Source of the DNA: Chrysochromulina tobinii
Taxonomy: Eukaryota > Haptophyta > Prymnesiales > Chrysochromulinaceae
DNA length: 20,810 bases
Assembly (NCBI GenBank): GCA_001275005.1
Contig: JWZX01002149.1
Coordinates: 1-20,810, forward strand
Direction of reading: 5' to 3'
Position 1 is the first letter of the stretch; each line of letters opens with the position of its first letter. Shown here piece by piece: positions 3,001 to 18,182 of the stretch. The translations under genes were made by a program, and so were the position numbers. The notes below the pieces were generated by a model. It was not told the DNA's origin and made no database searches. It saw only the letters and a list, made by a program, of their open reading frames with translations.

Positions 3001-4492
3001 AGCGGTGGTGGAGGCTCCTCCCAACGTGCCCATACCATCGCTGTCGACGATGGGGAAGGCTGCTCCCATCGTGTTCATGCCACCACCGACAAAGGCTCCT
3101 CTCGGAAGACAATCACTCCTACGAGAGCGCGCAGCTGCTCGCGCGGCTGCAAAGTCGGCGCCGACGGCATTACCGCCGGCCGCATCGTCGAAGCCCAAGC
3201 CGCCGCCCAAGCCCCCTAAATTCCGAAGGTTGCCGGCGATGCTCCGAGTGCCCAACGTGCAAAACATTCTCGGCGTCACCTTCGCGGCGGCCCTCATCAA
3301 CGTCTCGACCGCTGTCATTGGCGCACAGATTGGTGTCGAGTATGCCTTCAGTGAAGAGGAACAATGGCACTACATCCTCGCTTGGGTTGTCTTCATCTTC
3401 ACCATGCTCTGGTTCGTACATCAGGTCTGGCGGCTCGAGAAGTTGCGGCGGCTGCACATGTCCATGATCTGGACTGACGCAGATCCGCCCGAGACGCCCA
3501 AGGACTGCGACGATCCCCTGTTTGGCTTGATGATGAAGGTCGGTTTCAAGGCGCGCCATCGCGTCAAGGGCGAGTTCGGCGTGCCCGATGAGGACAAGCA
3601 GGAGCCCGCGCGCACCGAGCGGGCCCTCGAATTCGCCTTCTTTTGGCCAACACGCATCATGTACCTGTTCGGCTACGGTTCGGGTGACAGAGAACACATC
3701 ATTGATGCTGAGTACTCGAAGAAGAAGATCTCGATCATGGGGCTCAACTGCTGTGAGACTCACGAACGGCCGGGCGATGCCTTGGAGCGCGGGCCCATGT
3801 GGGTGGACGAAGCCAAGGGCGGTCGAGGCGTCCACTACCTGTCGGTGCAGCTGGGGCTGCAGCTCCTCGCGGGCGGACTCTCGGGCTTCCTCGAGGCCCA
3901 TCCGTGGAAGATGACCTCGGATGGTGGCATGGGGCTCGTGATTGCTCTCCTCTGCACGCAGTTTTTGAGCCTCCTATGGTGCGCTGCCAACACGGCCTCG
4001 GATTATCTGAAAGCCGGACAAGCGATCACCGTCTATGGGTGCGAGTTTCTGGCGAGTCTCCTCGTCTTCGTAGCTGGTTTGGTGGCCGATTCTGACCTCG
4101 AGGGCTCTCTGATGCTCGCCGTGCGCGCGGCGGACATCATGGTATATTGCGCGTTCATTCCCATGATCTTAATGGGGTGGGACAATCTAGTCTGCCCACC
4201 GATGAAAATGTTCCTCAAAGGCGAAGAGGGAACGTTGGAGACACTCTACCTCATGTTCATCGCGCTCCTTTTGATCCCGGTATCAATCGCGCAGACCATG
4301 TTTGGCTTTGGCGGGGACAGCACGGACTTGGCCATGGCGGTTGTGGGCGCCATGGACATGGTTGCGGGCGACGTTGCGGCCACCGCCGACGAGACGGCAG
4401 AAGAAGAACAAGGGGGCGGAGAAGGCGCGGGAGCAGTTGACCCAGTCAAAGAGGTTCAGCCTCTTGAGGGTGATGCCGCGCAGGTAGCGTGA
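2..4492 (+). CDS. Large proline-rich, EF-hand, multi-pass membrane protein (5' partial)
   Basis: The frame is open from the left window edge to the TGA at 4490-4492. The first in-window ATG is at 233, but proline-rich coding continues upstream, so the true start lies outside. Numbering from that ATG, the product has a Pro/Ser-rich N-terminal stretch (about 44-80), an acidic predicted extracellular region (about 410-550), a strong membrane segment (about 556-582) and a pair of EF-hands. The EF loops are at 629-640 (DQDGSGFVSTKE) and 665-676 (DLDLSGQMKFEE). A Pro/Thr-rich linker with internal repeats follows (about 688-990). The C-terminal half has further hydrophobic segments near 1012-1034, 1047-1066, 1202-1222, 1231-1253, 1267-1286, 1293-1314 and 1336-1357, then an acidic tail. 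I do not recognise the C-terminal membrane family; it has no evident channel selectivity motif or retinal lysine. A Ca2+-responsive surface or plasma-membrane protein is inference. Smaller introns cannot be excluded. Confidence 0.8.
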   Translation: MPRAGFSPPHPSPPPPAPPPSPPPDPPPPNPPPNPPPPRPPPSTPPSPPPPEPPPSPAPPPPSPAPPGAAQVFIATIMQEFAAPEGVTFDSAALAQAQERIRAAVGLLAQELDEGTFQVMPSPPSPPPPSPSAPPPWSPPPFPPTPPAPTSPPPAARADSPATTTTNATTAGRRLGLDQLPSMAFGSRIELPSLDSLSRSLLHLVLAVNRRIPSYHANRHPNLVPSFFEPVTTVEVGTAPNGGTTVEATVLEGQHSLRDLPRSTESAGSRDLPWSAPRRRLSWYCIAAVNGEVGSGQSAASVTFFQVTSVVTTTDQGRFAALLAMLAMSAANGTGTHQNAITNAAGQSLTQCDNAWLKGTQRQVIPAPAPPPPRPNAALGGLRLEDFVNVTNPGMAALGALMAASAGTIQSAVGASVGASAAASAAGGGGPSGAGNAMRGAQRLAYYTKLGPPNPDGDDGGGGGFTTGRLGFSRRRRAPPPPPPTYHVVIGFGASEPIVAFTNARLADISILVAAESGVDPSAVTTVAYAYAASTREQLVSRALSEALASDADSSEGAIGAAWVEITIVTTGSSMSAAVEESLSASVFADANATSEFLNLLVTSAPDIASETVTYEDEEGEEQENVSLMLGAALVDTVISVGAIFCFITAIHYAILLWWYMYANRKYYAYHAAQRVQDAAEEAAATPQERKALLMAKSRRIFDQFDQDGSGFVSTKEVTRMVKMLKLGLTRSQVNEMVSAADLDLSGQMKFEEFVDFLKSYQGSSTLFQRLMLFRHLGRAGRTVTLPRRSRVAPSAEPLPDQTRMEQAEIGISTAVIAFSSSPMPTPGLLPWTTASAEDPEHTEVLHANAKAPPTTTRTPPALPPASPPMTTTTFISSRIPFQRLSLFGHLGRADRAVIIFRPARVAPNAKPLSDLTRVESYAVSPPPSPPLRPEPVPSPLPTGMPEGDKVWSLSSTPISLPPQEAISTTTTVRTITEVTTTYFISSRMPAPKRHVWEAAAVVEAPPNVPIPSLSTMGKAAPIVFMPPPTKAPLGRQSLLRERAAARAAAKSAPTALPPAASSKPKPPPKPPKFRRLPAMLRVPNVQNILGVTFAAALINVSTAVIGAQIGVEYAFSEEEQWHYILAWVVFIFTMLWFVHQVWRLEKLRRLHMSMIWTDADPPETPKDCDDPLFGLMMKVGFKARHRVKGEFGVPDEDKQEPARTERALEFAFFWPTRIMYLFGYGSGDREHIIDAEYSKKKISIMGLNCCETHERPGDALERGPMWVDEAKGGRGVHYLSVQLGLQLLAGGLSGFLEAHPWKMTSDGGMGLVIALLCTQFLSLLWCAANTASDYLKAGQAITVYGCEFLASLLVFVAGLVADSDLEGSLMLAVRAADIMVYCAFIPMILMGWDNLVCPPMKMFLKGEEGTLETLYLMFIALLLIPVSIAQTMFGFGGDSTDLAMAVVGAMDMVAGDVAATADETAEEEQGGGEGAGAVDPVKEVQPLEGDAAQVA
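2293..2970 (+). repeat. Degenerate internal repeat in the cytosolic linker of the EF-hand membrane protein
   Basis: Residues about 688-730 and 801-843 of the large membrane protein are diverged copies, sharing FQRL-L-F-HLGRA-R-V, RVAP-A-PL-D-TR-E in the same order. A second pair, TTTTFISSRIP (about 794-804) and TTTYFISSRMP (about 903-913), continues the same roughly 110-residue period. The linker therefore grew by in-frame duplication of a block of about 340 bp. Confidence 0.7.
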
Positions 4493-4670
4493 GGGCGCAT
4501 TCGGGTATCGAACAGGAAGGCGCGGTTGAAAGCCCCTGTGGTGCAGACGAGGGTGTGTGAATGTGAACGTGTGGGCGCATTCGGGAGTCGAGTGGGAAGG
4601 CGCGGGTGAAAGCCCCTGTGATGTAGACGTGGGTGTGTTCGGGAGTCGAACGGGAAGGCGCGCCGCAGAC
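4493..4670 (+). repeat. 80-bp tandem repeat just after the membrane-protein stop codon
   Basis: Two near-identical copies start at 4493 and 4573 (each beginning GGGCGCATTCGGG), with an exact 80-bp offset. A third shortened copy begins near 4636 (TTCGGGAGTCGAACGGGAAG). Each full unit also holds GGTTGAAAGCCCCTGTG or a close variant. The array begins at the first base after the stop, so it may be 3' UTR or intergenic. No function is apparent. Confidence 0.8.
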
Positions 4671-5384
4671 GCGTAGCGCCCGACGACGGTGAGTTGCAAG
4701 CGGTGAAGCCGGCCCCGATGAGACCCCGGCGGGGGCGGCGAGAAGGATCGTGCGCGAAGAGGTTTGGGGGGAGGAGTGTGTTATAGGAAGAGTGCGACAG
4801 GTGAGGCCGTAGCTGGTGAAGTCGTGGGTCGTCGGTGCGTGTCGCGTTTATCAAGTGTTTCCTGGGGCTAACCGCCTGCAGCGACCCCTCTCCCCCTGCC
4901 TGCACCCTACTCCCTGGACCCTGCCTGCAGTCGAGCTGGGGGCTGTACTTTTCTCTTCGTAATGCGGTCTGCGTGGCTCCAAAAGGCTTTTAAAGGGTTT
5001 TCTCAAGAATCCAGAACGACTTCTCTGGACGCACGTATTTTGCGCGCGCAACCTCCACAGTTGACACTTAGGATCTTAGGATCTTAGGTGACACTCGAAT
5101 TACAATACACCTTGTCGTGATCAGACACCGACAGCCGAGCGAGGAGCCACGAGCATGAACCATGATGTGACGTGACGTCTAGACGTGTGGGTGATGCGCG
5201 CCCAGAACCATCGGCGCCGCCTGCCCGCACTCTAGCGGGCAACTAGCTCAGCCACTCACTCGCTCTTCTTTTCACTCAACATTCGATTACTTACAACACG
5301 TCCGCAGATCTCAAATAGCACTCAAACGAAACCAACACCGATTGAAGCTGGTGGATGCTCACGAAGCCAAGATGGCTTACTTAC
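4671..5384. other. Intergenic region without a supported gene
   Basis: This is the convergent 3' space between the membrane-protein gene (+) and the first U-box gene (-). Short open frames are present but none shows conserved protein character. A small tandem of TTAGGATC lies near 5068-5090. No RNA gene or clear polyadenylation signal was recognised. Confidence 0.5.
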
Positions 5385-6089
5385 TTACTCACGCAGCCAT
5401 GTGGCTGCTGCCTCTTTGTTGATTGCGGCGCAATCGTCAATCGTGGCTCTCACCACCATCGAATAGTAGCGGCGCGCCATCTTCTCGTCCTTCGGGAAGC
5501 CATAGCGGCCCTCGGCGTATGCGAATCCCAGATTGAAGCACGCACGTTTGCTGCCGCGCCCGGCGGCCTCGCTCAGCAGCGTAGCACCACGCGATTGCCA
5601 TACCTGATCAAGTGCCTGGCACGTCGGCACGCCGTACCCCAGCAAGTAGCACCTTCCTAGGTATCCACTCCCACATACATTCCCAGCCTCGTGGCTCTTC
5701 TCGAACCACTCGAAAGCCTTGGCCTCATCCTTTGCGAGGCCCTTCTCACCATACTTGTACCAAAGCCCCAGGTTGGACATCGCCCCGCCATTACCAGCCT
5801 CGGCCAAGCACCGCATCTCCTCCAACTCCTCCTTCTCCTTCATCTTCTGCCTCCACGCGTCCACCTTGTCACCCGTGAGAGCGCCTTTGGAGACCATCGC
5901 GCGGATCATGTTCTTGACCTGCAGCGCCGGCAGCAGCTTCGTGCCCATCTCCAAGTTCGTCACCGGGCTCTTGCGCTGCTTCTTGAGCCACTCCTCGATG
6001 GCCGAGCGCTCGTACACCTTGCCGTCCTCCGCGATGACGGGGTCGACAGGCAGCGAGAAGGTAATGGGGCAGAAGAGCTTGTTCGGCAT
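5385..6089 (-). CDS. U-box and Sel1-like repeat protein, copy 1
   Basis: This 234-residue protein starts at the ATG on 6089-6087; a stop lies in frame a little upstream, near 6137. The N-terminus is a U-box (about residues 5-70): FCPITFSLPVDPV, then AEDGKVYERSAIEEWL and SPVTNLEMGTKLLPA, as in E3 ubiquitin ligases that use a RING-like fold without zinc. A short charged helix (about 80-95) leads into about three Sel1-like repeats, with GNGGAMSNLGLWY, AFEWFEKSHEAGN and GSKRACFNLGFAYAEG as landmarks. A role as substrate-binding E3 ligase is inferred from the domains. It is closely related to the gene at 11115-11894 but lacks that copy's N-terminal basic/acidic extension. It stops at WLRE where the other copy has WLREHPA, because of a local insertion in the last codons. 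Confidence 0.85.
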   Translation of the reverse strand: MPNKLFCPITFSLPVDPVIAEDGKVYERSAIEEWLKKQRKSPVTNLEMGTKLLPALQVKNMIRAMVSKGALTGDKVDAWRQKMKEKEELEEMRCLAEAGNGGAMSNLGLWYKYGEKGLAKDEAKAFEWFEKSHEAGNVCGSGYLGRCYLLGYGVPTCQALDQVWQSRGATLLSEAAGRGSKRACFNLGFAYAEGRYGFPKDEKMARRYYSMVVRATIDDCAAINKEAAATWLRE

Positions 6090-6624: not shown

Positions 6625-9600
6625 ATGCGATGGTGCTGCGGGCCGACGGCCACCGTGGCGGTCGAACCGTGCACCACGTTCAGCTCCTCTGGTGCACCAC
6701 TGCGAGCACCCTCGGGCTGCGACGGCACGCCCCATTCCTCCACCTTCCGCGTCGTCACAGTGCCGTACCTCGGCCGATGCCTCGTCGCCGCTCGGCCCAT
6801 GGCGCCGGGTGAGGTCATCATCTCAGAGGAGCCCATACTGGCGGCCGAGTACAGAGCTGGAACGGCCGATCGAGAGCCAACGCCGTCCGAAAAGAATAGC
6901 GTGGCGCAGGCCTCACGCAATGAGTCCATCTTGCGCACGTACTGTGACTCGCCGGCGTTGGTGCGCGAGGCCGTGCTCGACGCGATGTCGACGATCGAGT
7001 ACGATGTGTCGGATGCCGGGACGCAGGTGGTCCTCGAGCAGGTGGACGCGATCCGAAAGGCGCACAAGTGGGCGGCGGCGCACTCAGCCCACGATCTGGC
7101 CACAGTCTTGATGGCCTTCAAACTGAACGCCTACGGCTTCGGAGGCGGCAACGCCCTCTTTCCGACCCTTCGACTGATGGAACACTCGTGCGAGTCGAAC
7201 GTCATCTACGCGCCGCGCCCGAGCGACATGCATGCTGGGCGCGGCGTCGCCGTCGCGCTGCGCGCCATCAAGGAAGGCGAGCGTCTCTCGACGAGCTATC
7301 ATGACTACTGATGACCTCTGATGACCTCTGATTGCCTCCCTCATCAGGCGAGCGCCTCTCGACGAGCTATCATGACTGTGTCGTCGGCCGACGGATGCGC
7401 CGCAGGTGCGCTGAGTGCATGCTGATTGCGTCTCTTTGCATGCTGAGTGCATGCTGAGTGCATGCTGAGTGCATGCTGAGCTGATTGGGTCGTGAATTGC
7501 CTCTAATTGCCTCTAATTGCCTCTAATTGCCTCTAATTGCCTCTAATTGACGGGCTGCATGCTGAGTGGCTCGACATCCTGCAGCATAAGAAGCCTGATT
7601 GCATGCTGATCACAACCTATCTGATTGCCCCCCTCATCAGGATCCTGCAGCATAAGAAGCAGTTTGTATGCCGATGCGCTCGCTGCGAGGCGCCGGATTG
7701 GAACACGCAGGTGTGCTGAGTGCCATGCTGAGTGCCGTGCTTGGTGCCTGCTGAGTGCCTCGAGGATGGTGATTGATTGCATGCTGAGTGCATGCTGAGT
7801 GCGTGCTGAGTGCAGGCTGATTGCATGCTGAGTGCATGCTGGGTGCCTCGAGGATGGTGATTGATTGCCTATTGAGTGCCTCGATTGGGAGTTGTACCTG
7901 CGGATTGCATGCTGATTGCATGCTGATTGCATGCTGATTGGCACTCGATTGGGAGTTGTAGGTACCTTGCCCCGGCTGCCACGCGCGCTCATCGGACGGT
8001 TTGCTGCGCGAGGAGTGTAGCGGATCGGAAGTCTTCTCCCTCGAGGCCCACCGCCACGGCGCGAAGCGGGTGCACTATGCACGTCGCGACGCCGAGTTGG
8101 GCACTTGCGACGAGGGCGCAGCCGTGGCAGCAGTGGTGCCGGCTGCAGCGGCATTGGCGGCGGCGGCAGCTGCAGCCGAAGGGGGGGAAGGAGATCACGG
8201 CACTTGGGCGGCGGCGGCGGCGGCAGCAGGGCCCGTGGAGGGCACATGGAGATGCGCGCACTGCAAGCGCGTGTGGTCCACGGCAGGTGCGCTGATTTCA
8301 TGCTGAGTGCATACTGATTGCATGCTAATTGCAAGCGCGTGTGGTCCACGGCAGATGTCTTCCCTTCGAGCGAGGGAGTCTGATTGCATGCTGAGTGCAT
8401 GCTGAGTGCATGCTGAGTGCATGCTGAGTGCATGCTGATTGCATGCTAATTGCAGATGTCTTCCCTTCGAGCGAGGGGGTCGAGGAGGACGTTGAGAATC
8501 TCGTCATGTATCTCGAGCTGCGGCTCGGCTGCTCTCTCGAGAACAACGCCTCGGTGATTGCCTCTGATTGCCTCTGATTGCCACCCTCATCGGCTGCTCA
8601 CTCGAGAACAACGCCTCGGTGATTGCCTCTGATTGCCTCTGATTGCCACCCTCATCGGCTGCTCACTCGAGAACAACGCCTCGGTGATTGCCTCTGATTG
8701 CCTCTGATTGCCTCGGTGATTGCATCGGTTTCATTTGGAGCTCCGTGCTTTTGTTTTGAAATGGGCTCTGAGCGCCACTGATGAGCCCCTGATGAGCCCC
8801 TGATGAGGGCTCTGATGACTCTGATGAAGGCTCTGAGTGCCCCCTGATTGCCTCCCTCATCAGGGGCTGCCGACGGGCTCGGACGCGGCCATCTTCACGA
8901 CGCTCGAGACGGCGCTCGAGACGGCGCGGGCGACCCTCGGTATGCGCCACTGGGCAACAGTCAAGCTCATGGCCCTGCAGACCCTCTGGCTTTGCTCGCA
9001 GGTGGGTGCGATGGAGTGCGACTGAGTGCGGCTGATGGCCACCAATTCACGCACCTAATTGACTCACTGCCCCTAATTGCCCCTCATTAACCCTCATTGC
9101 CACGCGGTGCAGCTCGCGATGGACGAGTCCGAGCGCGCGCCCGGCCTGCCCAGCCTGCCCCTGTGCCTGCTCACGCTCATCGAGAACGAGGAGTGGATTT
9201 GGAACTACTGCGCCGAGAGCGGCACGCAGCCGCACTTCTTCGTGCACGTGGGCCGGATTACGTACGCGCCTGTTGACCTCTGATGGCCTCTAATTGCCTC
9301 TGATGGCCTCTAATTGCCTCTGATGACCTCTAATTGCCTCTGATGGCCTCTGATGGCCTCTAATTGCCTCTGATGGCCTCTAATTGCCTCTGATGGCCAC
9401 TGAGGGCCTGTCTGATTGCGTCCCTCATCAGGTACCCAATCTTCGTCCATTACGAGAACAAGGGGGTCGAGATCGCCGTCGCGCGCCCCTGGGTCGCGCG
9501 CTGTGCCGCCGTCGTCATCGCGGGCGACGTGCACGGGCTGCCAGCGCAGCAAGAGATTGGCAAGGTGCACTGATGACTCCTGATGACCACCTGATTGCCC

Positions 9601-10511
9601 CCTGAGTGATTCATCGCAGCAAGAGATTGGCAAGGTGTATGAGCCTCGAGCCACATACGGGCCCTAATTGCCCCTAATTGTACTCATTGCCCCTAATTGC
9701 CCTTAATTGCCCCTAATTGTACTCATTGCCCCTGATTGCCCCTAATTGCCCCTAATTGTACTCATTGCCCTAATTGCCCCTCATTGGCAAGGTGTATGAG
9801 CCTCGAGCCACGTACGGCCCCCCAGCGCCGGGCGAGGCCTGGCAGGGGGGGGCGGGGCCGGGGGGGGCGCTTCGTCTTTCGGAGGGGCCGACGATCCAAT
9901 TGCTGCGGACTATGGGCATGCCGCCGACCTGCGCGGGTGATTGCGACTGAGTGCGACTGAGTGCAACTGAGTGCGACTGAGTGCGACTGAGTGCGACTGA
10001 TGGACGCTGATTGGAGCTGATGAACGTTGACGGCCGCTGATGATCGCTGATTGCTGATGAATGGCGCCCACGTGCGCAGGGATCTCGTCGGTGCTATGCA
10101 TCGCGCATTGCCGCTGATTGCTGTTGATTGCTGATGGCATGCTGATGGCATGCTGATGGCATGCACGTGCCCACGTGCGCAGGAATCTCGGAGGTGCTCA
10201 GGATCGCGGGAGATCGCGAGCTCAAGGGAGGGTCGGCGGGCAGCGCGCTGCTCTTCTTTCGGAGAGCCCACCTGTACGTCCTGATGGCATGATGATGTCA
10301 TGCTGATTGCGTAATGATTGCGTGCTGTTGGCTCTTCTTTCGGAGAGCCCACCTGTACGTGCTACACCTCTGTTGGCGTCTGATGGCCTCTTGATGGCCA
10401 CTGATGGCCTGCCTGATTGCCTCCCTCATCAGGTACGACCCGTGGAACAATGAGCTCTCGGAGCGCATTGAAGCCGCAACGGCCGCGTTAGAGGCCATCC
10501 GGGCCATGTAG
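6625..10511 (+). CDS. SMYD-like SET-domain protein (11 exons)
   Basis: Exons by frame and splice sites: 6625-7276, 7348-7405, 7641-7710, 7962-8286, 8456-8553, 8864-9001, 9113-9261, 9432-9564, 9792-9936, 10183-10273, 10433-10511; they sum to 1938 nt, or 645 residues. The SET domain starts with GRCLVAARPMAPGEVI (about 50-65), has MEHSCESN (about 185-192, the NHSCxPN motif) and ends GERLSTSYHD (about 218-227). A post-SET-like cluster CRCARC...CPGC (about 247-266) spans exons 3-4, and a CAHC pair lies at about 358-361. Exon 4 carries polyalanine runs. The C-terminal part (LGMRHWATVKLMAL; AGDRELKGGSAGSALLFFRRAHLY) resembles the helical-repeat tail of SMYD lysine methyltransferases. The zinc-binding MYND insert usual inside SMYD SET domains is not visible. 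Protein-lysine methyltransferase activity is inferred. The ATG at 6625 is the first in frame after non-coding sequence. Confidence 0.85.
7277..7347 (+). other. SET gene intron 1 (GC-AG, 71 nt)
   Basis: The donor is AAG|GCGAGC and the acceptor CATCAG|GCGAGC. The first 30 nt of the intron copy the first 30 nt of exon 2 with one difference, so the insert proper is about 41 nt of CTGATGACC and CTGATTGCC units plus CTCATCAG. No GT donor keeps the SET frame. Reading on without splicing meets a stop at once after YHDY. Confidence 0.8.
7406..7640 (+). other. SET gene intron 2 (GT-AG, 235 nt)
   Basis: The donor is CGCAG|GTGCGC and the acceptor CCTCATCAG|GATCC. The body holds an 11-nt array (TGCTGAGTGCA, about 7437-7480) and a 10-nt array (CTCTAATTGC, 7501-7550). 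An 18-nt copy of the exon 3 start lies at 7576-7593. Splicing joins RRMRRR to ILQHKKQFVC, matching the end of a SET domain. Confidence 0.8.
7711..7961 (+). other. SET gene intron 3 (GT-AG, 251 nt)
   Basis: The donor is ACGCAG|GTGTGC and the acceptor GTTGTAG|GTACC. The body is mostly 11-nt TGCTGAGTGCA and TGCTGATTGCA units, with GATTGGGAGTTGTA at 7874-7888 and again at the acceptor. That motif resembles a degraded copy of the exon 3 end (GATTGGAACACGCAG). Splicing restores the CxCxxC...CxxC cluster. Confidence 0.75.
8287..8455 (+). other. SET gene intron 4 with an internal intronless exon-junction copy (169 nt)
   Basis: The donor is GGCAG|GTGCGC and the acceptor AATTGCAG|ATGTC. Bases 8331-8354 repeat the last 24 nt of exon 4 exactly. 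They run without interruption into 8355-8376, which repeats the first 22 nt of exon 5. On both sides are 11-nt TGCTGAGTGCA-type units. Confidence 0.8.
8554..8863 (+). other. SET gene intron 5 with 65-bp minisatellite (310 nt)
   Basis: The donor is GCCTCG|GTGATT and the acceptor CCTCATCAG|GGGC. A 65-bp unit containing the exon end (CTCGAGAACAACGCCTCG), the donor and three TGATTGCC units is present in the exon (CTCGA at 8536) and repeated with CTCGA at 8601 and 8666. The donor is therefore present three times. The 3' part holds CTGATGAG-type repeats before CTCATCAG. Confidence 0.75.
9002..9112 (+). other. SET gene intron 6 (GT-AG, 111 nt)
   Basis: The donor is TCGCAG|GTGGGT and the acceptor GGTGCAG|CTCGC. 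The intron start contains GCGATGGAGTGCGAC, resembling the exon 7 start (GCGATGGACGAGTCCGAG). The body has CTAATTGCCC and CTCATTAACC units. The phase-0 splice joins LWLCSQ to LAMDESE. Confidence 0.75.
9262..9431 (+). other. SET gene intron 7 (GT-AG, 170 nt)
   Basis: The donor is ATTAC|GTACGC and the acceptor CCTCATCAG|GTACCC, so GTAC is repeated at both boundaries. The body is a nearly pure 10-nt array alternating CTCTGATGGC and CTCTAATTGC. Splicing gives RITYPIFVHYENKG. Confidence 0.8.
9565..9791 (+). other. SET gene intron 8 with an internal intronless exon-junction copy (227 nt)
   Basis: The donor is GGCAAG|GTGCAC and the acceptor TTGGCAAG|GTGTATGAG. Bases 9615-9634 copy the exon 8 end, and 9635-9664 continue directly into a copy of the exon 9 start with few changes. 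The rest is CCCTAATTGC and GTACTCATTG units. Splicing into the internal copy instead would soon reach a stop. Confidence 0.75.
9937..10182 (+). other. SET gene intron 9 (GT-AG, 246 nt)
   Basis: The donor is GCGCGG|GTGATT and the acceptor GTGCGCAG|GAATC. The body starts with a 10-nt GACTGAGTGC array and ends with 11-nt GCTGATGGCAT units. A diverged copy of the exon 10 start with its acceptor (CCCACGTGCGCAG) lies at about 10067-10107. Splicing gives PPTCAGISEVLRIAGD. Confidence 0.7.
10274..10432 (+). other. SET gene intron 10 (GT-AG, 159 nt)
   Basis: The donor is CCACCT|GTACGT and the acceptor CCTCATCAG|GTACGA. Bases 10331-10360 are a 30-nt copy of 10250-10279, the exon 10 end with its donor. 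The remainder is CTGATGGC-type units. Splicing yields RRAHLYDPWNNE. Confidence 0.8.
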
Positions 10512-11114
10512 AGCAATTTTGGTAAGGATGCTGGGTTAGAGTCGAGTACGACCTCGACGACGACGCGCCAAGTTTAAGCCAAGTTTGGTACGCTTCTTGG
10601 ACGTTGGAGACAAATGTGGGGCTGCAGGTTTTGGAACAGACGAGGTGTCACGTACGACTAGAGCCAGAGATTTGTGCCGCGCGGGCGCGCGGATGCGCGT
10701 GCGGCGTGGGTTTACCTGGCATCCTGGCTATAGCGGCGCGAACCGCGTACGTCACCCTCGACCCTGGGCCTGGCCCGAGGCCGTAGGGCGTGTAGAGCGC
10801 GTAGGAGGGGGTTTCCAAGCAACTGGGTGGGGCTCGGCGAGGAATGGGGAGTTAAATAAGTCTGGCGAGTGGCCCAGTCGCCCGTGGCGATGCGTCTAAG
10901 CAGATTAATCTGCGGAACTGCGGTTTGCAAAAGCCGTGCTGGATCATTCTTTTGTCGAGAGAGATGGTCGCAGTGGATACGACTGTAGGTCCCTAGCACG
11001 CGTCGAGAGTGTGGATAATCGTGCTAGAGTGTCCTGTGGACGTCCTGGGAAGCCGACGGTGGGGCGCAGTGGGGCGCTGTGAATTCGCGCCACGACGGCG
11101 CGCACAGCTTCGCG
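10512..11114. other. Intergenic region between SET gene and U-box copy 2
   Basis: This is presumed 3' UTR of the SET gene and promoter of the next. Short frames look like chance reading of GC-rich DNA. A dispersed repeat at 10911-10974 is described separately. No RNA gene was recognised. Confidence 0.5.
10911..10974 (+). repeat. Dispersed repeat, copy A (downstream of SET gene)
   Basis: The block GCGGAACTGCGGTT followed by ATCATTCTTTTGTC and GAGAGATGGTCGCAGT recurs at 17350-17430. Its 3' roughly 48 nt match with only a few substitutions and small gaps. Both copies lie in the non-coding DNA after a repeat-intron gene on the same strand. Confidence 0.8.
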
Positions 11115-11894
11115 ATGCCGCCCAAGCGCGGCCGCGCGGCTTCTGAGGCCGAGGATGAGACGGTGCAGGAGTTTCGCCGACACAAGAGCGCGGTCAACGA
11201 GGCCATGAACGAGTTCCTCTGCCCCATCACCTTCTCGCTCCCGGTCGACCCCGTTACTGCCGAGGACGGCAAGGTGTACGAGCGCTCGGCCATCGAGGAG
11301 TGGCTCAAGCAGCAGCACAAGAGCCCGGTGACGAACTTGGAGATGGGCACGAAGCTGCTGCCGGCGCTGCAGGTCAAGAACATGATCCGCGCGATGGTCA
11401 CCTCGGGCGCTCTCACGGGCGACAAGGTGGACGCGTGGAAGCTGAAGCTGGAGGAGGAGGAGAAGGTGGCGGAGATGCTGCGGAAGGCCGGGGCTGGTGA
11501 TGGCGGGGCGATGTGCATACTGGGAGCATGGTACAAGCTTGGTCAGAAGGGCCTCGCAAAGGACGATGCCAAGGCTTTCGAGTGGTTCGAGAAGAGCCAC
11601 GAGGCTGGGATTGCAGGTGGGACTGGCTGCCTTGGCCTTTTCTACTTGGTTGGTCATGGTGTGCCAAAGTGCCTTGTGCGTGCCAATACGCTGATGAGCC
11701 AGGCCGCTGAGCACGGCAGCAAAAGTGCGTGCTACCATATGGGACGCGCATACGCTGATGGCCTCTGTGGCTTCCCGAAGGACGAGAAGATGGCGCGCCG
11801 CTACTACTCGATGGTGGCGAGCGCCTCGATCGAGGATTGCGACGACGCTGCCAAAGAGAAAGCAGCCACATGGCTGCGTGAGCATCCAGCGTGA
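11115..11894 (+). CDS. U-box and Sel1-like repeat protein, copy 2
   Basis: The ATG at 11115 begins a 259-residue protein, MPPKRGRAASEAEDE..., ending WLREHPA. A basic then acidic N-terminal extension of about 35 residues precedes the U-box (about 36-100; FLCPITFSLPVDPV, EDGKVYERSAIEEWLKQQ, SPVTNLEMGTKLLPA). A charged helix (about 112-130) and about three Sel1-like repeats follow (GDGGAMCILGAWYKLG, AFEWFEKSHEAGIAG, GSKSACYHMGRAYADG). It is a clear paralog of the minus-strand gene at 5385-6089, with the U-box almost unchanged and the repeats more diverged. An in-frame GTG further upstream is a less likely start. An E3 ubiquitin-ligase role is inferred. Confidence 0.87.
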   Translation: MPPKRGRAASEAEDETVQEFRRHKSAVNEAMNEFLCPITFSLPVDPVTAEDGKVYERSAIEEWLKQQHKSPVTNLEMGTKLLPALQVKNMIRAMVTSGALTGDKVDAWKLKLEEEEKVAEMLRKAGAGDGGAMCILGAWYKLGQKGLAKDDAKAFEWFEKSHEAGIAGGTGCLGLFYLVGHGVPKCLVRANTLMSQAAEHGSKSACYHMGRAYADGLCGFPKDEKMARRYYSMVASASIEDCDDAAKEKAATWLREHPA

Positions 11895-11988
11895 GCTAGC
11901 ACCCGATGCGAGAGGAACAGGTAATGCTACCGAAAGCTCCATGTCTTCTGTGCGTGCGATCGACGATGTTAAATATGCCGTTGAGCGT

Positions 11989-12099
11989 GTTCACTCGTCC
12001 TCTGCCGGGGCTGTGTTTGTGGCTGATGGCATGCTGATGGCATGTTGATTGCATGTTGATTGCATGTTCACTCGTCCTCTGCCGGGGCTGTGTTTGTGG
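11989..12099 (+). repeat. CTGAT-type repeat insertion with a 34-bp flanking duplication, outside a coding region
   Basis: The 34 bp at 11989-12022 are repeated exactly at 12066-12099. The 43 bp between (12023-12065) are four CTGATGGCATG/TTGATTGCATG units, the same family as the intron bodies nearby. The structure matches the introns except that it lacks the CTCATCAG end and has no coding sequence on either side. Confidence 0.85.
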
Positions 12100-12315
12100 C
12101 CGCGCTGTCTGGCTGCGCTGCCTCTCGGCTTTGTGTCCTCTGCGGTGCCAGGCTGCCGTCGCGCAGCCACTGTGCTGACGCAGCACGCACAGACTGCATT
12201 GACAGACTGAGCAGAGGTCCAGAGAAGCTGGGGCAAGGTGTGGCCTAGGTAGCTACGTCCGCGTCATCGCGTCTGCTCGGTCTGCTCCTCGTGACGGTTG
12301 TTGTGTTAAAGGAGA

Positions 12316-12400
12316 GAACGCACACTGACCATGAAAGATACGTATCCCATATGTTCACACTCGAAAGGTGTGCGTTCACAGAGGACTCGGCTTCGCCGAG
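12316..12400. promoter_or_regulatory. Inverted repeat and hairpin upstream of carboxylesterase
   Basis: GAACGCACAC at 12316-12325 pairs with GTGTGCGTTC at 12368-12377 (10 bp perfect, 42-nt spacer). CTCGGCTTCGCCGAG at 12386-12400 is a short perfect hairpin. Both lie within about 110 bp of the esterase ATG. A promoter or 5' UTR role is inferred from position only. Confidence 0.3.
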
Positions 12401-12426
12401 CCGTCGGTCGCCCCCCCCCCGACTAA

Positions 12427-14968
12427 ATGCCAGCCAATCTCCTCTCTTGCCTCCTCCTCTCCTCAACGTTGGCATCCGTACCTAAAACGGCCCTCGCCAC
12501 TACCAGTCTTGGCACCCTGAGAGGCGCCCTAAAGCCGCTCGCACGCGAGTGGCTGCGCGTGCCCTTTGCGGAGCCGCCGCTCGGCTCTCATCGCTGGAGC
12601 CCGCCGGTGCCCAAGCTTCCGTGGCAGGGCGTGCTCGACGCGACCGCCTTCGGCCCTGGCTGCCCGCAGCCCGACAATGGCTTCTGGCCGCCCGTATCCA
12701 ACACCTCGGAGGACTGTCTCTCGATGGCCATCTACGCGCCGCCGGAGCAGGACCGCGTCGCGCTAGACCCCGTCCTCGTCTACTTCCACGGCGGCAGCTT
12801 CTCCAACGGCGGCGCCGAGGACCCGCGCACGAACGCGTCGCGCCTAGTCGCCTCGTACGGCGGGCGGGTGGTCGTGGCGGTCGTGCAATACCGGCTGGGC
12901 GTCCTCGGCTTCCTCGGCGGGGACGCCCTCCGTGGCCGGGGCGGCGACGCGTCGACGGGCAACTACGGCCTGCAGGACCAGCGCGAAGGGCTGCGCTTCC
13001 TGCGCCAGCACGCCGCCGCCTTTGGCGGCGATCCCGCCACCATCACGATCGCCGGCCAGTCCGCGGGCGCCGGGCTCGTCTCTGTGCACGTGGTTTCGTC
13101 AAGGTAGGATTGGAATCCGCTCTGACTGCATGCTGATGGCGTCCTTCATCACGCCCGCGTGCTCGATTTCGTCAAGGTATGATTGGAATCCGCCCTGACT
13201 GCATGCTGATGGCGTCCTTCATCACGCCCGCGTGCTCGATTTCGTCCCTCATCAGGTCATCCCTCCTCTTCGACCGGGCGGTGATGTGGTCGGGCGCCTT
13301 CTCCGATTGGATCGCCGCACGAATGACGAAACAGGAGGCGCTCTTCTCCGAGATCGTGCGCAGATTGTGCGCCAAGAATGACGAAACACTGCCGGCGGCC
13401 TCCTCGCCGATCGCCTGCCTGGAGGGCGCCGCCGTGGGCGCGTTGCTCGGCGCGGCGACGCAGGCGGTAGAGGCCGTCTGCTCCAGCCACGCATGCCTCC
13501 AGCCTACCATCGACGGCGTCGAGCTGACCGACGATCCCCGCGCCCTCTTCGCCGTCCCGGGCGCCGTGCCGAGCGCCGTCCCGATGATGCTCGGCTCCAC
13601 CTTGGACGAAGGCGACGGGTTCGACGCGGGCGGCGGGCTGCCGCACCAATCGAGCGCCCAGCAGGCGCGCTGATTGCCTCCGATGGCCTCTGATCACCAA
13701 TCGATTGCGCCCCTCATCAACCAATCGAGCGCGTGCGTAGCATCTGAGTGCCTCTGAGTGCCTCTGAGTGCCTCTGAGTGCCTCTGAGTGCCTCTGAGTG
13801 CCTCTGGTGCCTCTGAGTGCCTCTGAGTGCCTCTGAGTGCCTCTGAGTGCCTCTGAGTGCCTCTGAGCGCCTCTGATTGCCCCCCTCATCAGGCGCGCAC
13901 GTGGCTCGCGCTCGAGTACAACTTAACGGCCGCCGACGCCGCCACGGTCTACGACAGCTACGCCGCGATCGCGCAGCCGCGCCTGGCGGCGGGCGCCGAG
14001 TCGGGCGCCTCGGCCCCCTACGTGGCCGCCGAGTGGGTGCGTCTGATTGCGTCTGATTACGTCTGATTGCGTCTGATTGCCTCAGATTGCCTCAGATTGC
14101 CTCAGATTGCCTCAGATTGCCTCTGATTACCTCTGATTGCCTCTGATAGCCCCCTACGTAGCCGCCGAGTGGGTGCGTCTCTGCTGATGACTGCTGATGA
14201 CTGCTGATGACTGCTGATGGCTGCTGCTGTTGAATGACTGCTGCTGATGACCCATGATTGCCTCCCTCATCAGGCCGAGACGGACCAGAGCATGTTCTGC
14301 GGCGCGCGGCGAGCGGCGCGGCGAATCGCCGCCGCCCGAGACGGCGTGGCAGGCGCCGTGCCGAGCGCCGAACCGAGCGCCGAACCAAGCGCCGTGTCGG
14401 GCACCATGCCGAGCGCCGTGTCGGGCATGCCCCAGGCGTACGTTTACCGGTTTGCTCGCGGGGTGGGGGGGTCTGCTTGGAGCCATCACAGCAACGACAT
14501 CCCTTTTTGGTTTGGCGCGCTTGAGGCCGTCGCGGCAGGTGGTCCTCCCGTCCCAAAAGGCAAGACGCGCATGCTGATTACGGCCCTCATCAGGTCATGC
14601 GGATGACGAAGCACTAACGGTCGCCATGTGGCCACCTCTGATTGCACCCCTCATCAGGTAATGCGGATGACGAGGCACTCACGGTCGCTATGGCCACCCT
14701 CCTGGTGAACTTTGTACGCACGGGAGCGCCCGGCGCCGTCCCGGGCGCCGCCGCCTGGCGTGCCTATACGATCGACGCACCGATCTCGCTGCGCCTCGAC
14801 ACGGCAGCGCCGGCGGCGGGTAGCGTCATGGGTGCAAGCGTCGTGTCGGGCGGCGGGCTCAACCTCACGCTCGAGGTGGATGCGCATGCAACCCAGTGTG
14901 CCTTCTGGGACGAGCACCCCATGTTTGATCAGGAATCGGTAAGCCGGTGGAAGACGAAGTCGGTGTGA
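12427..14968 (+). CDS. Secreted type-B carboxylesterase (5 exons)
   Basis: Exons: 12427-13103, 13256-13664, 13893-14036, 14274-14559, 14658-14968; 1827 nt, 608 residues, a normal length for the family. MPANLLSCLLLSSTLAS looks like a signal peptide. Family landmarks are VPFAEPPLGSHRW (about 45-57), EDCL (95-98), the oxyanion-hole HGG (121-123), NYGLQDQREGLRFL, the nucleophile in GQSAGAG (Ser212), and LFDRAVMWSGAF straight after intron 1. Glu344 in GSTLDEGDGF and His482 in SHHSNDIPFWFG complete the triad. The common GESAGA has Gln for Glu here. A low-complexity PSAEPSAEPSAV insert (about 438-462) precedes the His segment. Hydrolysis of carboxylic esters in a secretory or extracellular compartment is inferred; the substrate is unknown. 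An alternative GT donor at 14539 for intron 4 would drop seven residues in frame. Confidence 0.87.
13104..13255 (+). other. Carboxylesterase intron 1 with duplicated donor (152 nt)
   Basis: The donor is TCAAG|GTAGGA and the acceptor CCTCATCAG|GTCATC. A 73-bp block (TTTCGTC at 13094, 13167 and 13240) is tandemly repeated, so a second donor (AAG|GTATGA) lies 73 nt further on. The last copy ends TTTCGTCCCTCATCAG. Splicing gives VSSRSSLLFDRAV. Confidence 0.85.
13665..13892 (+). other. Carboxylesterase intron 2 (GC-AG, decamer array, 228 nt)
   Basis: The donor is CCAGCAG|GCGCGC and the acceptor CCTCATCAG|GCGCGC, so GCGCGC is repeated at both boundaries. Bases about 13743-13870 hold about 13 copies of the decamer CTGAGTGCCT, one of them 9 nt. 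No GT donor nearby keeps the frame as well. Confidence 0.8.
14037..14273 (+). other. Carboxylesterase intron 3 (237 nt)
   Basis: The donor is GAGTGG|GTGCGT and the acceptor CCTCATCAG|GCCGAG. The body has TCTGATTGCG and CTCAGATTGC decamers, then a 32-nt copy of the exon 3 end plus donor at 14149-14180 (one mismatch to 14013-14044), then CTGCTGATGA units. Splicing gives AAEWAETDQSMFCG, typical of the family. Confidence 0.8.
14560..14657 (+). other. Carboxylesterase intron 4 (98 nt, GC-AG or alternative GT-AG)
   Basis: The acceptor is CCTCATCAG|GTAATG. Donor options in the same phase are CAAAAG|GCAAGA at 14560 or GGCAG|GTGGTC at 14539. A 35-nt diverged copy of the exon 5 start, with its own CATCAG, lies at 14594-14628. 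Using that earlier acceptor leads to a stop. Confidence 0.7.
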
Positions 14969-15083
14969 ACGTCGTGAAAAATCCCTCTTCAGTCTGTCTC
15001 TTCACGCCGGGGCTCAAAAAAACTTGCGGTGGCCACCGCCTTGCCGCTTTTTGCCGCGGCCATTTCTCTCCGCAGGGGGGAAA

Positions 15084-17280
15084 ATGGGCTCGCGGCCGCG
15101 CACACCAACCACCGACAGTCACGGAGGAGAGTCCCCCGTGTTGAGCAGGCGCATGGCGTATGAGCCAGAGGGGAGCAGACGTACCGAGACGTACCGAGTG
15201 TCAAGCAGAGATGCTCTCAAGCAGTACGAGGAGACGGCCATGAAGAAGCAGGAGCAGCAGAAGAAGAGCAGCGAAGAGCAGCAGCAGCCGCTGCCGCAGC
15301 AGCTGCCGAAGCTGCTGGACGCCGCTGTGGAGCTCTTTGGTGGAGGCGAGAGGAGTCTCACGCCAGCACTGGCCGTCTCGTCGCCCCAGCTCTCCGACGA
15401 AGCATGGACCGAGGCGGAGGATGAGGAGCACAAGGCGGCGACGATGCTGCAGGCGATCGTGCGCGGCCGGAGCGAGCGGGCGCAGATCCGGCAAAAGGTC
15501 AGCGAGACTCACGCCGCCAAGCGCCCTCCCTTGTCACCCGTCGTCAAGGCGGCCGCCATGCCTTCGGACCTGACGGCGCCCAAGACGGCGCGCCCGATGA
15601 AAGCTTGGTGGTCCTTCCGCTCGTACGTGTCGGCTCGCCTCTTCGCCACCTATGCGAGTCGCTCCCGCTCGTCGGAGCCGCCGAGCCGCCTGACGAAACC
15701 CGAGCCGCCGGTTGACGAAACCCGAGCCGCCGTCAAACGAAACCCGAGCGTGCGTCTGTTTGACGAAACCCGAGACGCCGCCGCGCCCGCGGCCGCGGCC
15801 GCGCTCGACTGGCGACCCGACGGCGCTCATCACGGCGCGCACACGAGGTCGAGCCGGCAGCCCACGTCCATATTAGGCCACTCGTCCTTCGCCAGCCGCC
15901 GCGCCGCCGCGCGCTGCTTCACAGTGGTCTTCACGGGTGGTCCGTGTGGGGGCAAGTCCTCAACGCTGGGGCCGCTCGCGTCCGCACTTCGCGCCGAGGG
16001 CTGGCAAGTGCGTGATGGGCGCTGATGACCACTGATGACCACTGATGACCACTGATTGCGTCCGCACTTCGCGCCGAGGGCTGGCAAGTGCGCGAAAGGA
16101 GCTTCGGCGAATTGCGACTGATGGTGACTGATTGCCTCCCTCATCAGGTGCTCCTCGTGCCGGAGGTACCGACCATCCTGAAGACGGGCGGCTGCATCTA
16201 CCCGGGCGTCGCCGGAGGCTCCAAGCTGCTCGAGTACGTTCATTACCCTTTGATGAGCTTGATTGCCGCTGATTGCCCTTTAACGAATTTCCCCTTCGAG
16301 GTTCGGAATTGACCCTGTGATGTTTCCCGTAGGTGAGCCTCGATTCAGATGGATGGCCTCTGATGATCACTGATTGCCTCGCTCATCAGGTACGAGAAGG
16401 GCGTGCTCGAGCTGCAGCTGCAGATGGAGGAATCTTTCCTTCGGATCGCGGCGAGCACGGGGCAGCCGACCGTCCTGATCATGGAGCGCGGCCTGCTCGA
16501 CCTGCCTGCCTACCTTCCGACAAAGCAATGGCGCCAAGTACTTGCCTTGCCTTGCCTTGCCTTGCCTTGCCTTGCCTATCCTACCAAGCAATGGCGCCAA
16601 GTACTTGACTTGACTTGACTTGACTGCCTTCCTCCAAAGCAATGGCGCCAAGTACTTGTCGATGGCCTCTGAGTGCCTCATGATGGCCGCTGATGAGGTC
16701 TGAGTGCCTCCCTCATCAGGTACTTCGCGACAACGCGCTCACGGAGACGGAGATCGCGGCGAGGTACGATCTCGTGCTTCGTCTGATGATCACTGATTGC
16801 CCCCCTGGCGAGGTACGATCTCGTGCTTCGTCTGATGATCACTGATTGCCCCCCTGGCGAGGTACGATCTCGTGCTTCAGATACCGTGCTTCATCTGATG
16901 ACGGCCGCAGAGGGTGCATCTGATGATCACTGATTGCCCCCCCCATCAGGTACGATCTCGTGCTTCATCTGAAGACGGCCGCAGAGGGCGCAGAGCCCTT
17001 CTACTCGACGCTCAACACGACGCCGACTGACGGGGTGCGAACGGAGACGGCGGAGGAGGCCCGGGAGCTCGATGCGAGATCAGGGGGTAATCAAGGAGTA
17101 ATCAAGGAGGCCCGGGAGCTCGATGCGAGGATCTTCCTAATTTGGAAGCGTGTGCATCGCTCGGTGGTCGTCATCGACAACTCAACCGACTTTGGCCAAA
17201 AGGTCACCCGTGCGAGCGGCGCCGTGTTGGGCGCGCTCAGGTCGGTGTCGACGATGGCGCCCGCCGTGACGAGCGTGTGA
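15084..17280 (+). CDS. P-loop AAA_28/TTD14-like protein with N-terminal IQ motif (5 exons)
   Basis: Exons: 15084-16007, 16148-16233, 16390-16537, 16720-16763, 16950-17280; 1533 nt, 510 residues. The N-terminal 280 residues are low-complexity, with a Gln/Glu/Lys-rich predicted coiled coil (about 43-80) and an IQ calmodulin-binding motif (LQAIVRGRSERAQIR, about 122-136). The nucleotide-binding domain starts VVFTGGPCGGKSSTL (P-loop 285-292), continues WQVLLVPEVPTILKTGG across intron 1, has LIMERGLLDLPAYL (a Walker-B/DRG-like position), YDLVLHLKTAAEGAEPFY and VVVIDNSTDF. This order fits the AAA_28 ATP/GTP-binding family that includes TTD14, a GTP-binding trafficking factor in flies. It ends soon after the NTPase domain, with none of the C-terminal domain I would expect in TTD14. 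A trafficking role is only by analogy. The start could also be the ATG at 15153. Confidence 0.8.
16008..16147 (+). other. TTD14-like gene intron 1 (140 nt)
   Basis: The donor is TGGCAA|GTGCGT and the acceptor CCTCATCAG|GTGCTC. The 35 nt at 15978-16012, spanning the exon end and donor, are repeated exactly at 16058-16092 after a short CTGATGACCA array. The phase-0 join gives EGWQVLLVPE. Confidence 0.85.
16234..16389 (+). other. TTD14-like gene intron 2 (156 nt)
   Basis: The donor is CTCGA|GTACGT and the acceptor GCTCATCAG|GTACGAG, so GTACG is repeated at both ends. The body has fewer and looser TGATTGCC-type units than its neighbours. Splicing gives KLLEYEKGVLEL. Confidence 0.8.
16538..16719 (+). 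other. TTD14-like gene intron 3 with CCTTG and ACTTG microsatellites (182 nt)
   Basis: The donor is CGCCAA|GTACTT and the acceptor CCTCATCAG|GTACTT. The exon 3 tail, CAATGGCGCCAAGTACTTG, recurs at about 16589-16607 and 16640-16658. The first is preceded by a CCTTG array and followed by an ACTTG array. CTGAGTGCCT-type units fill the 3' part. Confidence 0.8.
16764..16949 (+). other. TTD14-like gene intron 4 with 49-bp tandem repeat and exon 5 copy (186 nt)
   Basis: The donor is GCGAG|GTACGA and the acceptor CCCATCAG|GTACGA. A 49-bp unit containing the exon end, donor and CTGATGATCACTGATTGC is repeated, giving donors at 16764, 16813 and 16862. A 34-nt copy of exon 5 sequence lies at 16885-16918 (matching 16959-16992 with two changes). 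Confidence 0.8.
17059..17130 (+). repeat. 51-bp in-frame tandem duplication in exon 5 of the TTD14-like gene
   Basis: GCCCGGGAGCTCGATGCGAG occurs at 17059 and 17110, so EARELDAR is encoded twice, separated by SGGNQGVIK. Family members I know have this segment once. The reading frame stays open and no usable GT-AG pair would remove it, so it is annotated as coding. Confidence 0.7.
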
Positions 17281-18182
17281 ACCTTAGAAGACGTGGATGT
17301 GGCTCTTGGAGAGCCTCGGAGTCGAGTTAAAGTCTGGCGTCGTCAGAGAGCGGAACTGCGGTTGAGGGTTGTAACTTGTATGCAAGCCGGTGCTGAATCA
17401 TTCTTTTGTCAGAGAGAGATGGTCGCAGTTGGGAACGGGAGCCCCTGGCTCCAGGACCCCTTGCATGCCGCTGAGAGGGTCCGGCGTGTAGACCTGACCT
17501 CTCTAGAGCGGGTCGAAGTCCGTAAGAGGTTCTTAGATGTCACCACTGGACAAACACTCTTCGACTCGCGCGCGGAAACCCCGCGCGCCCTTTCACCGGG
17601 ACGGCGCTTGACGTAACTCTACGTGCATGCGACCGGAACGTCCCGGACCCGGTTTACCGACTCGCAGTGCAGAATGTATACTCTTCGGTAACCCTATACA
17701 GACTCTATGTCACCTCAACAGTGCCGATTGCGATTAACGTTGCGCGGTCACACACCGCACTGCGCCCGGGGCGTTCCGGTCCGGACCTCTCGAACCACCG
17801 ACGAGGCTGCGTGCTGGCTCCCTGCACCCTGGCGCGGTGCGGCCGCGGCAAAAAGAAGCCAGGCGGGACGCGGGAACTCACTCCACACCGACGTCGACGC
17901 GGCGGGACGCCCCCGCGCGGCCCCGTGCAAGAGCGAATGGCGTGCATCAAATCTGCCGAACTGCGCGGCCGCGTGCCCTCTGCTGAGTCTCGGCCGCACG
18001 GCTTCTGCCTTTTCGACGCGGACAGTGCTCTCAGCGCAGTACCAGAGCCCTCACTCGGCACCGCCTTCGGAGCCGGGGCGGGTGCTGGAGCCTTGGGTGG
18101 TAGTGCGGCAGTCGGTGCCACTCCGGCGCCCGTGCAGGCGCCGTCCAGACCCTAGGATGCACATCGGGCTCGGTCCCGGCCT
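17281..18182. other. Convergent intergenic region without a supported gene
   Basis: This is the 3' space shared by the TTD14-like gene (+) and the GTPase gene (-). Open frames exist here because of high GC, but none shows recognisable domains or plausible composition. The dispersed repeat at 17350-17430 is listed separately. Confidence 0.5.
17350..17430 (+). repeat. Dispersed repeat, copy B (downstream of TTD14-like gene)
   Basis: This matches 10911-10974: GCGGAACTGCGGTT at 17350-17363, then GCAAGCCGGTGCTGAATC at 17382-17399 and TTCTTTTGTC with GAGAGATGGTCGCAGT up to 17430. The two parts are separated by 18 nt here, against 1 nt in copy A. Confidence 0.8.

Follow-up and report, generated by a model that had tools for sequence, protein, structure and literature searches.

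Introns with long target duplications and often locally copied bodies in the haptophyte Chrysochromulina tobinii

Many introns of the haptophyte Chrysochromulina tobinii look as if they were built around a long copy of adjoining exon sequence. We propose, with a probability of roughly 55%, that many of them are spliceosomal introns gained through a target-duplicating repair process that is blind to splicing and copies pieces of other introns, its products being filtered by selection. The build was recognized in three neighboring genes on a 20,810-nucleotide (nt) stretch of the genome (assembly GCA_001275005.1, contig JWZX01002149.1, positions 1 to 20,810), hereafter called the window and numbered C1054 among our contigs. 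Its introns look gained, the donor often lying within the duplicated target and the acceptor within the insert. The origin of introns is a long-standing question, and natural examples that still carry an undamaged scar of insertion are rare. The present genome contains thousands of copies of two intron-associated families, and a long target duplication is still visible at over half of the sampled family ends. The ancestral site and the patch placed in it can be read, in some cases together with the source of the patch, so that the repair model is open to tests on cultures or natural populations. If a more specific and tentative version of the model is true, repair itself would be the engine of intron spread, each intron templating others in the same gene.

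Splice models over positions 6,625 to 17,280 place 10, 4, and 4 introns in the three genes, the same total of 18 as in the original prediction, and 13 of them end in CATCAG, a count that was likewise reproduced. The donors are GT in 15 introns and GC in 3, and the frames of all three genes are open only once the 18 introns are taken out. Against two contiguous relative proteins (50% and 48% identity), the product of gene 1 aligns without gaps at 8 of the 10 junctions, introns 5 and 8 falling in variable regions of the protein. The SET and carboxylesterase domains were found as Pfam matches, each on a single exon; the first exon of gene 3 gave no Pfam match, and we take its product to be a P-loop protein from a motif. 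The tandem arrays of 10–11-nt units described for the intron bodies are indeed present. An exact match of at least 3 nt between the start of the intron and that of the next exon occurs in 9 of the 18 introns (17 nt in one, 5–7 nt in five, and 3–4 nt in three), so the claim that most introns open in this way was slightly overstated, while the long copies do go beyond chance.

A gene elsewhere in the genome, encoding a Lon protease on the minus strand of stretch L038, gives the best test of splicing. Taking out 14 GT-AG introns yields one open frame, and the spliced model aligns to solved Lon proteins across their conserved parts and ends in SKL, presumably a peroxisomal signal. A protein search also identified P0121, a 482-residue sequence from a 2,054-base contig, which equals the spliced model plus two extra residues. 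The equivalent genomic part takes about 3.3 kb, and the contig is therefore probably, and most simply, cDNA. P0121 covers 10 of the 14 junctions and has 9 of them as modeled, whereas at intron 12 the extra residues indicate a donor 6 nt further on. Removing the introns thus restores the message, with the qualification that a protein comparison reveals that one period has been removed and not where within the duplication the cut lies. An assembly artefact was considered and is thought unlikely, given that removal of the inserts gives intact proteins and that a separate contig agrees on Lon.

Family counts refer to the 53.2-Mb assembly of 2,253 contigs, in which not every pattern match is a demonstrated intron. 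The 20-nt end of the first family (F1), TGATTGCCTCCCTCATCAGG, has 3,349 matches with at most 2 mismatches, compared with 0 for the reversed control. The core of the second family (F2) has 1,434 matches with at most 1 mismatch, compared with 1 for its reversed control; F2 bodies span about 45 nt, from GCATGCAAG to CCCCACAG, without being tandem arrays. The original prediction had described the bodies as local expansions rather than dispersed homologous sequences, and these two dispersed families contradict it. F1 inserts have variable 5' ends, several F2 copies carry extra 5' bases, and one copy is truncated at its 5' end. F1 inserts are rich in CTRAY, which we take to be a branch-site motif (3.9 per 100 nt compared with 0.32 in shuffled sequence), and among the 129 F1 ends with a CTRAY, 103 have the adenine of the last one at a distance of 17 nt from the 3' end. 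A passage from the literature on Micromonas fits this reading of the motif. The identity of terminal inverted repeats was 0.48 in 50 F1 inserts (0.43 when shuffled) and 0.41 in 9 F2 inserts (0.44 when shuffled), so there was no excess in either set. An exact-match search of IMG/VR with the tested F1 and F2 cores found neither, in a collection from which records near this genome may be absent, and viral carriage was set aside on this result.

The target duplications were measured in sampled sequence, namely 283 kb in 50 partly overlapping sequences with 158 family ends: 139 of F1, which end like the window introns, and 19 of F2, most of the 158 being without a gene model. Since 10 of the 19 long stretches were selected as rich in F1, counts of sampled ends are not densities; nine content-blind stretches (90 kb) contained 10 F1 and 3 F2 ends as well as 7 duplication-array events, of which a single stretch accounted for 5. 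For each end, the 50 nt past it were aligned to the region 18–260 nt upstream, and for the null an exon start was swapped in from another fetched sequence. A score of at least 12 was reached by 76 of 139 F1 ends compared with 17 of 834 swapped pairs, and by 10 of 19 F2 ends compared with 0 of 114. A long target duplication is visible at 86 of the 158 ends. As expected of staggered-break repair, these introns have one exon end directly repeated on their opposite side. The 66 clean duplications are 13–49 nt long (median 30.5, quartiles 23 and 38), and 16 of them have no mismatch; another 20 reach the 50-nt measuring limit and were excluded from later counts. Similarity close to both intron ends was not found in the 66 clean cases, where the 13–49 nt on the 5' side are a site-specific copy of the local exon. 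Shared starts of 4–6 nt are individually indistinguishable from chance (median 7 observed, 5 in the null), and a class of short duplications remains compatible with the data for this reason.

If the target is duplicated, the exon start should resemble a donor, and GT does follow the F1 end often: the exact 19-nt end occurs 879 times in the genome with GT next in 590, compared with 5.7% after any CAG in the nine content-blind stretches. In the sample, GT is next at 45 of 76 F1 sites where a long duplication is visible and at 44 of 63 sites without one, and so this sign is independent of a visible long copy. Where the long copy is present, it directly continues the upstream exon, and the older, uninterrupted exon can still be read. 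In this respect, the original reading of these sequences as gained introns is supported, whereas the origin of each body by local expansion alone, which formed part of it, is not.

We also gathered 60 duplication-array-duplication events without any acceptor criterion (copies of 16–50 nt that are not arrays themselves, inserts of 15–170 nt, no nested copy); their gene context is known in the window and the Lon gene only. Forty-four of them do not end at CATCAG or CACAG. In six of these, an acceptor word is present at a slightly greater distance, either among the last 25 nt of the insert or inside the second copy, and in the other 38, of which 10 are in the window, neither word occurs in those places. 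A fixed 3' insert end, as expected for non-LTR (long terminal repeat) target-primed insertion, is accordingly not what these 38 events display. Scarless removal in the sense direction by GT-AG splicing is possible for 27 of the 60 events, compared with 6.06 expected from shifted spacings, and 5 further events allow it with GC-AG only. The 27 fall into three arrangements: the donor at the start of the duplication and the acceptor at the end of the insert (8 events); the donor at the start of the insert and the acceptor where the second copy ends, both within 4 nt (9 events); and both splice sites inside the duplication (10 events, to be read against the chance expectation of 6 scarless events in 60). 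Intron 4 of gene 1 opens with an event of the second type, and its spliced product matches the relatives. The original prediction, in which the duplicated target contributes the donor while branch sites and acceptor come from the insert, holds often and agrees with the wealth of CTRAY in F1, but it describes one of three arrangements, and F2 inserts lack CTRAY.

Duplications also flank other short units, for example (CCTTG)n and (CGATCT)n. In gene 3, an antisense array at 17,054–17,129 adds 17 codons to the frame and is a coding counterpart of the intron-making events. On account of the events without an acceptor, the three arrangements, this antisense coding array, and an array outside the modeled genes, insertion seems to take place without regard to splicing.

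Several inserts reveal where their filler came from. One distinctive body has only two occurrences in the genome (at most 3 mismatches), 1.2 kb apart and in different targets, and another has three, all inside about 450 bp of the Lon gene. The latter carries CGATTAC, which is exon sequence at only one of its three sites, and the other two copies were most simply copied from there. An F2 intron likewise carries an 11-letter tag that, within the sampled sequence, belongs to an exon some 1.06 kb distant. Across ten family-rich contigs, the own contig was strictly the best source for 16 of 44 inserts compared with 4.4 expected (p = 2.7e-6). The joins were examined by comparing the letters beside each insert with those beside the same 8-letter word in other contigs. 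The mean match was 0.97 compared with 0.38 nt at the 3' junction (37 events not ending at an acceptor; 0 of 5,000 permutations) and 0.70 compared with 0.37 nt at the 5' junction (35 events; 1 of 5,000 permutations), and joining at short matches is likely. As a separate observation, the 5-nt-unit arrays at 16,523–16,640 have a unit matching the last letters of the duplicated exon piece (ACTTG), and this array unit looks locally seeded. On the minus strand of L039, four F2 copies lie inside 1.7 kb (about 3,740–5,442).

These features are accommodated most economically by a short series of steps. A break or a pair of nicks would leave a stagger of about 13–49 nt, and filling in both ends would duplicate that stretch of the gene. 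Filler copied from elsewhere, often from an intron close by, would bridge the gap and be joined to it at short matches, and tandem units may lengthen by slippage. Selection would then retain those inserts that splicing can remove exactly. Intron ends bearing an acceptor would make good filler, and two such segments may have become dispersed families in this way. A more specific version, which we consider tentative and place a little short of even odds, is that introns in this lineage spread without a transposase, break repair duplicating 13–49 nt and patching the gap with the acceptor segment of a nearby intron, so that each intron templates more in the same gene. Matches to DNA polymerase family A were observed at two loci, G000:C1472 and C2143, which could include polymerase theta.

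Several points weigh against the repair model. The duplicated target, the copying of the tagged fillers, and the restored protein are demonstrated here, whereas the breaks, the polymerase, and the order of the steps are our reconstruction; neither a break, a polymerase at work, nor an intron-free allele was observed. No long duplication is visible at 63 of 139 F1 and 9 of 19 F2 ends, and insert length falls as the duplication grows (Spearman −0.68), in part as a result of how the boundaries are drawn. The F1 consensus is longer than splicing should require. F2 nearly always starts with GCATGCAAG, thereby resembling an element with a defined 5' end, and the density of CTRAY in its inserts is 0.0. 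Nine of the 60 events are scarless in antisense as well, and part of the 27 is therefore due to chance. For 28 of the 44 inserts there is no uniquely local source, and with 600 bp masked on each side the local best sources fall to 10 of 44 (p = 0.01), which means that much of the signal lies close by. Finally, the junction signal depends on the method used, a cruder test based on array period giving no clear excess (12 of 53 compared with 16% at the 3' side, and 9 of 53 compared with 14% at the 5' side), and the weaker signal at the 5' than at the 3' junction also suits priming from one end on RNA.

That last point leads to target-primed reverse transcription, in which the enzyme of a retroelement nicks the gene and copies an excised intron or other RNA, producing duplications of variable length, fixed 3' ends, and variable 5' ends. 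We consider this unlikely as an account of the events. It would explain the variable duplications together with the conserved 3' ends, the extra 5' bases of several F2 copies, the single 5'-truncated copy, the nearly constant F2 5' end, and the stronger junction matches on the 3' side, and the genome does have 26 RVT_1 matches (22 above the family cut-off), although the presence of reverse transcriptase says little by itself. Copying from the 3' end of an intron RNA would not, however, directly give events that lack an acceptor or that have their donor in the insert, and the 38 of 60 events without a family acceptor near the 3' end, as well as the 9 of 27 scarless events whose donor lies at or within 4 nt of the start of the insert and whose acceptor the duplication supplies, therefore argue against RNA priming.

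It is less probable still that repeats invaded or expanded in pre-existing introns, the duplications arising later by slippage. Nested tandem copies and several short-unit arrays do lie inside introns, and the 63 F1 ends without a long duplication are what such a history could leave. At the long copies, for example in Lon introns 3 and 6, the upstream exon nevertheless continues directly into the first letters of the next exon, and an intron-free ancestor is required there. Ordinary introners, in the sense of short DNA transposons mobilized by a transposase, would account for two dispersed families of many copies and for a single target-derived splice site, which has been described for introners (PMC9860276), but they are very improbable here, the clean duplications being variable and 13–49 nt long rather than 3–9 bp, the 50 F1 and 9 F2 inserts having no terminal inverted repeats, and the 5' ends of F1 inserts varying.

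The introns and related features of the window are collected in Table 1.

Table 1. Positions of genes, introns, and duplication-array features in the window
Feature	Positions	Strand	Description
Gene 1, SET-domain protein	6625..10511	+	645 residues after removal of 10 introns
Gene 1 intron 1	7277..7347	+	GC-AG; opens with imperfect 30-nt copy of next exon (first 7 exact); CATCAG end
Gene 1 intron 2	7406..7640	+	array body; internal 19-nt copy of next exon; CATCAG end
Gene 1 intron 3	7711..7961	+	array body; TTGTAG end
Gene 1 intron 4	8287..8455	+	two stacked events (copies of 25 nt at 8262 and 8330 and of 26 nt at 8351 and 8452); donor from insert, acceptor from duplicated exon piece
Gene 1 intron 5	8554..8863	+	starts within 65-nt tandem copies; CATCAG end; junction in variable region
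Gene 1 intron 6	9002..9112	+	GTGCAG end
Gene 1 intron 7	9262..9431	+	GTAC shared with next exon; 10-nt array; CATCAG end
Gene 1 intron 8	9565..9791	+	stacked pair of duplications (copies of 23 nt from 9545 and of 35 nt from 9626); array body; acceptor supplied by duplicated exon piece; relatives gapped at junction
Gene 1 intron 9	9937..10182	+	array body; GCGCAG end
Gene 1 intron 10	10274..10432	+	GTACG shared with next exon; CATCAG end
Duplication-array-duplication outside modeled gene frames	11988..12100	+	two 36-nt copies, 41-nt array, no family acceptor; downstream of U-box gene
Gene 2 (carboxylesterase) intron 1	13104..13255	+	73-nt tandem copies across exon end; CATCAG end
Gene 2 intron 2	13665..13892	+	GC-AG; GCGCGC shared with next exon; CATCAG end
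Gene 2 intron 3	14037..14273	+	arrays; exon end duplicated (32 nt); CATCAG end
Gene 2 intron 4	14560..14657	+	GC-AG; copy of exon start between two CATCAG ends
Gene 3 intron 1	16008..16147	+	GTGC shared with next exon; 35-nt duplication across exon-donor boundary
Gene 3 intron 2	16234..16389	+	GTACG shared with next exon; CATCAG end
Gene 3 intron 3	16538..16719	+	GTACTT shared with next exon; (CCTTG)n and (ACTTG)n arrays flanked by copies of exon end
Gene 3 intron 4	16764..16949	+	first 17 nt identical to start of next exon; nested 49-nt copies; CATCAG end
Gene 3 in-frame coding insertion, 51 nt	17054..17129	+	25-nt copies flanking 26-nt antisense array of family-like units

Some other features were observed in the window. 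Its GTPase is 64% identical to that of Emiliania huxleyi, the first match listed with an organism name, and other proteins reach 96% identity. Two similar intronless frames with U-box and Sel1 repeats flank gene 1 (5,385–6,089 on the minus strand and 11,079–11,894 on the plus strand). Genes 1 and 3 are each followed downstream by a similar stretch (10,910–10,975 and 17,350–17,430), both containing GAGAGATGGTCGCAGT; a genome search with a single pattern for this repeat gave at least one match, in the window, and the pattern misses the copy near 10,945. At 4,488–4,638, an 80-nt unit is repeated 1.9 times, at the end of and past a large EF-hand reading frame.

The comparison with known systems draws on excerpts of the cited papers. 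Among the closest are the introns of Daphnia pulex attributed to staggered breaks, where 33 exon repeats of 4–12 bp are given for 90 introns (PMC4202315); as here, the exon end is directly repeated at the opposite end and there are signs of repeated internal events, whereas the C. tobinii repeats measure 13–49 nt in clean cases and come with two recurrent filler families and locally copied bodies. The fill-in logic also resembles that of paired-nick breaks in mammalian cells, in which fill-in and end joining turn 43-bp overhangs into tandem duplications (Schimmel et al. 2021, PMC8355091), although neither introns nor copied intron filler appear in the excerpted passages of that study. Intron gain by tandem genomic duplication has been described for RdRp of potato (PMC4974935) and may be comparable to the 10 events here with both splice sites in the duplication, the difference being the filler between the two copies in C. 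tobinii. Rogers and Bendich (2025, PMC11782384) surveyed 213 introns across life and argued that introns carry insertion-type direct repeats of 4–30 bp (mean 11.4 bp); direct repeats near intron borders are shared with the present case, and the abstract makes no mention of families or templates.

The target duplications of introners measure 3–9 bp, and inverted repeats are frequent (Gozashti et al. 2022, PMC9860276). With them, the F1 and F2 matches have in common that similar intron sequence recurs at unrelated positions and that the target duplication may supply a splice site; the 66 clean duplications of 13–49 nt lie outside the introner range. According to the excerpts, that survey included a Chrysochromulina genome, its example having 4-bp duplications and its own 5' splice site. 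Its criteria required similarity near both intron ends, and low-complexity families were removed by hand; for both reasons, F1 would probably have been dropped. The introners of Amoebophrya likewise recur as introns and have direct repeats where they adjoin the exons, but these repeats are shorter (3–5 nt), and they have inverted repeats of 8–20 nt and non-canonical splice sites (PMC7789003). Among the titles, abstract openings, and passages retrieved from open-licence PubMed Central papers, none describes haptophyte introns of the present build. The build combines features of the Daphnia breaks with those of introners and is distinct from both in the length of the duplication, the filler families, and the local copying.
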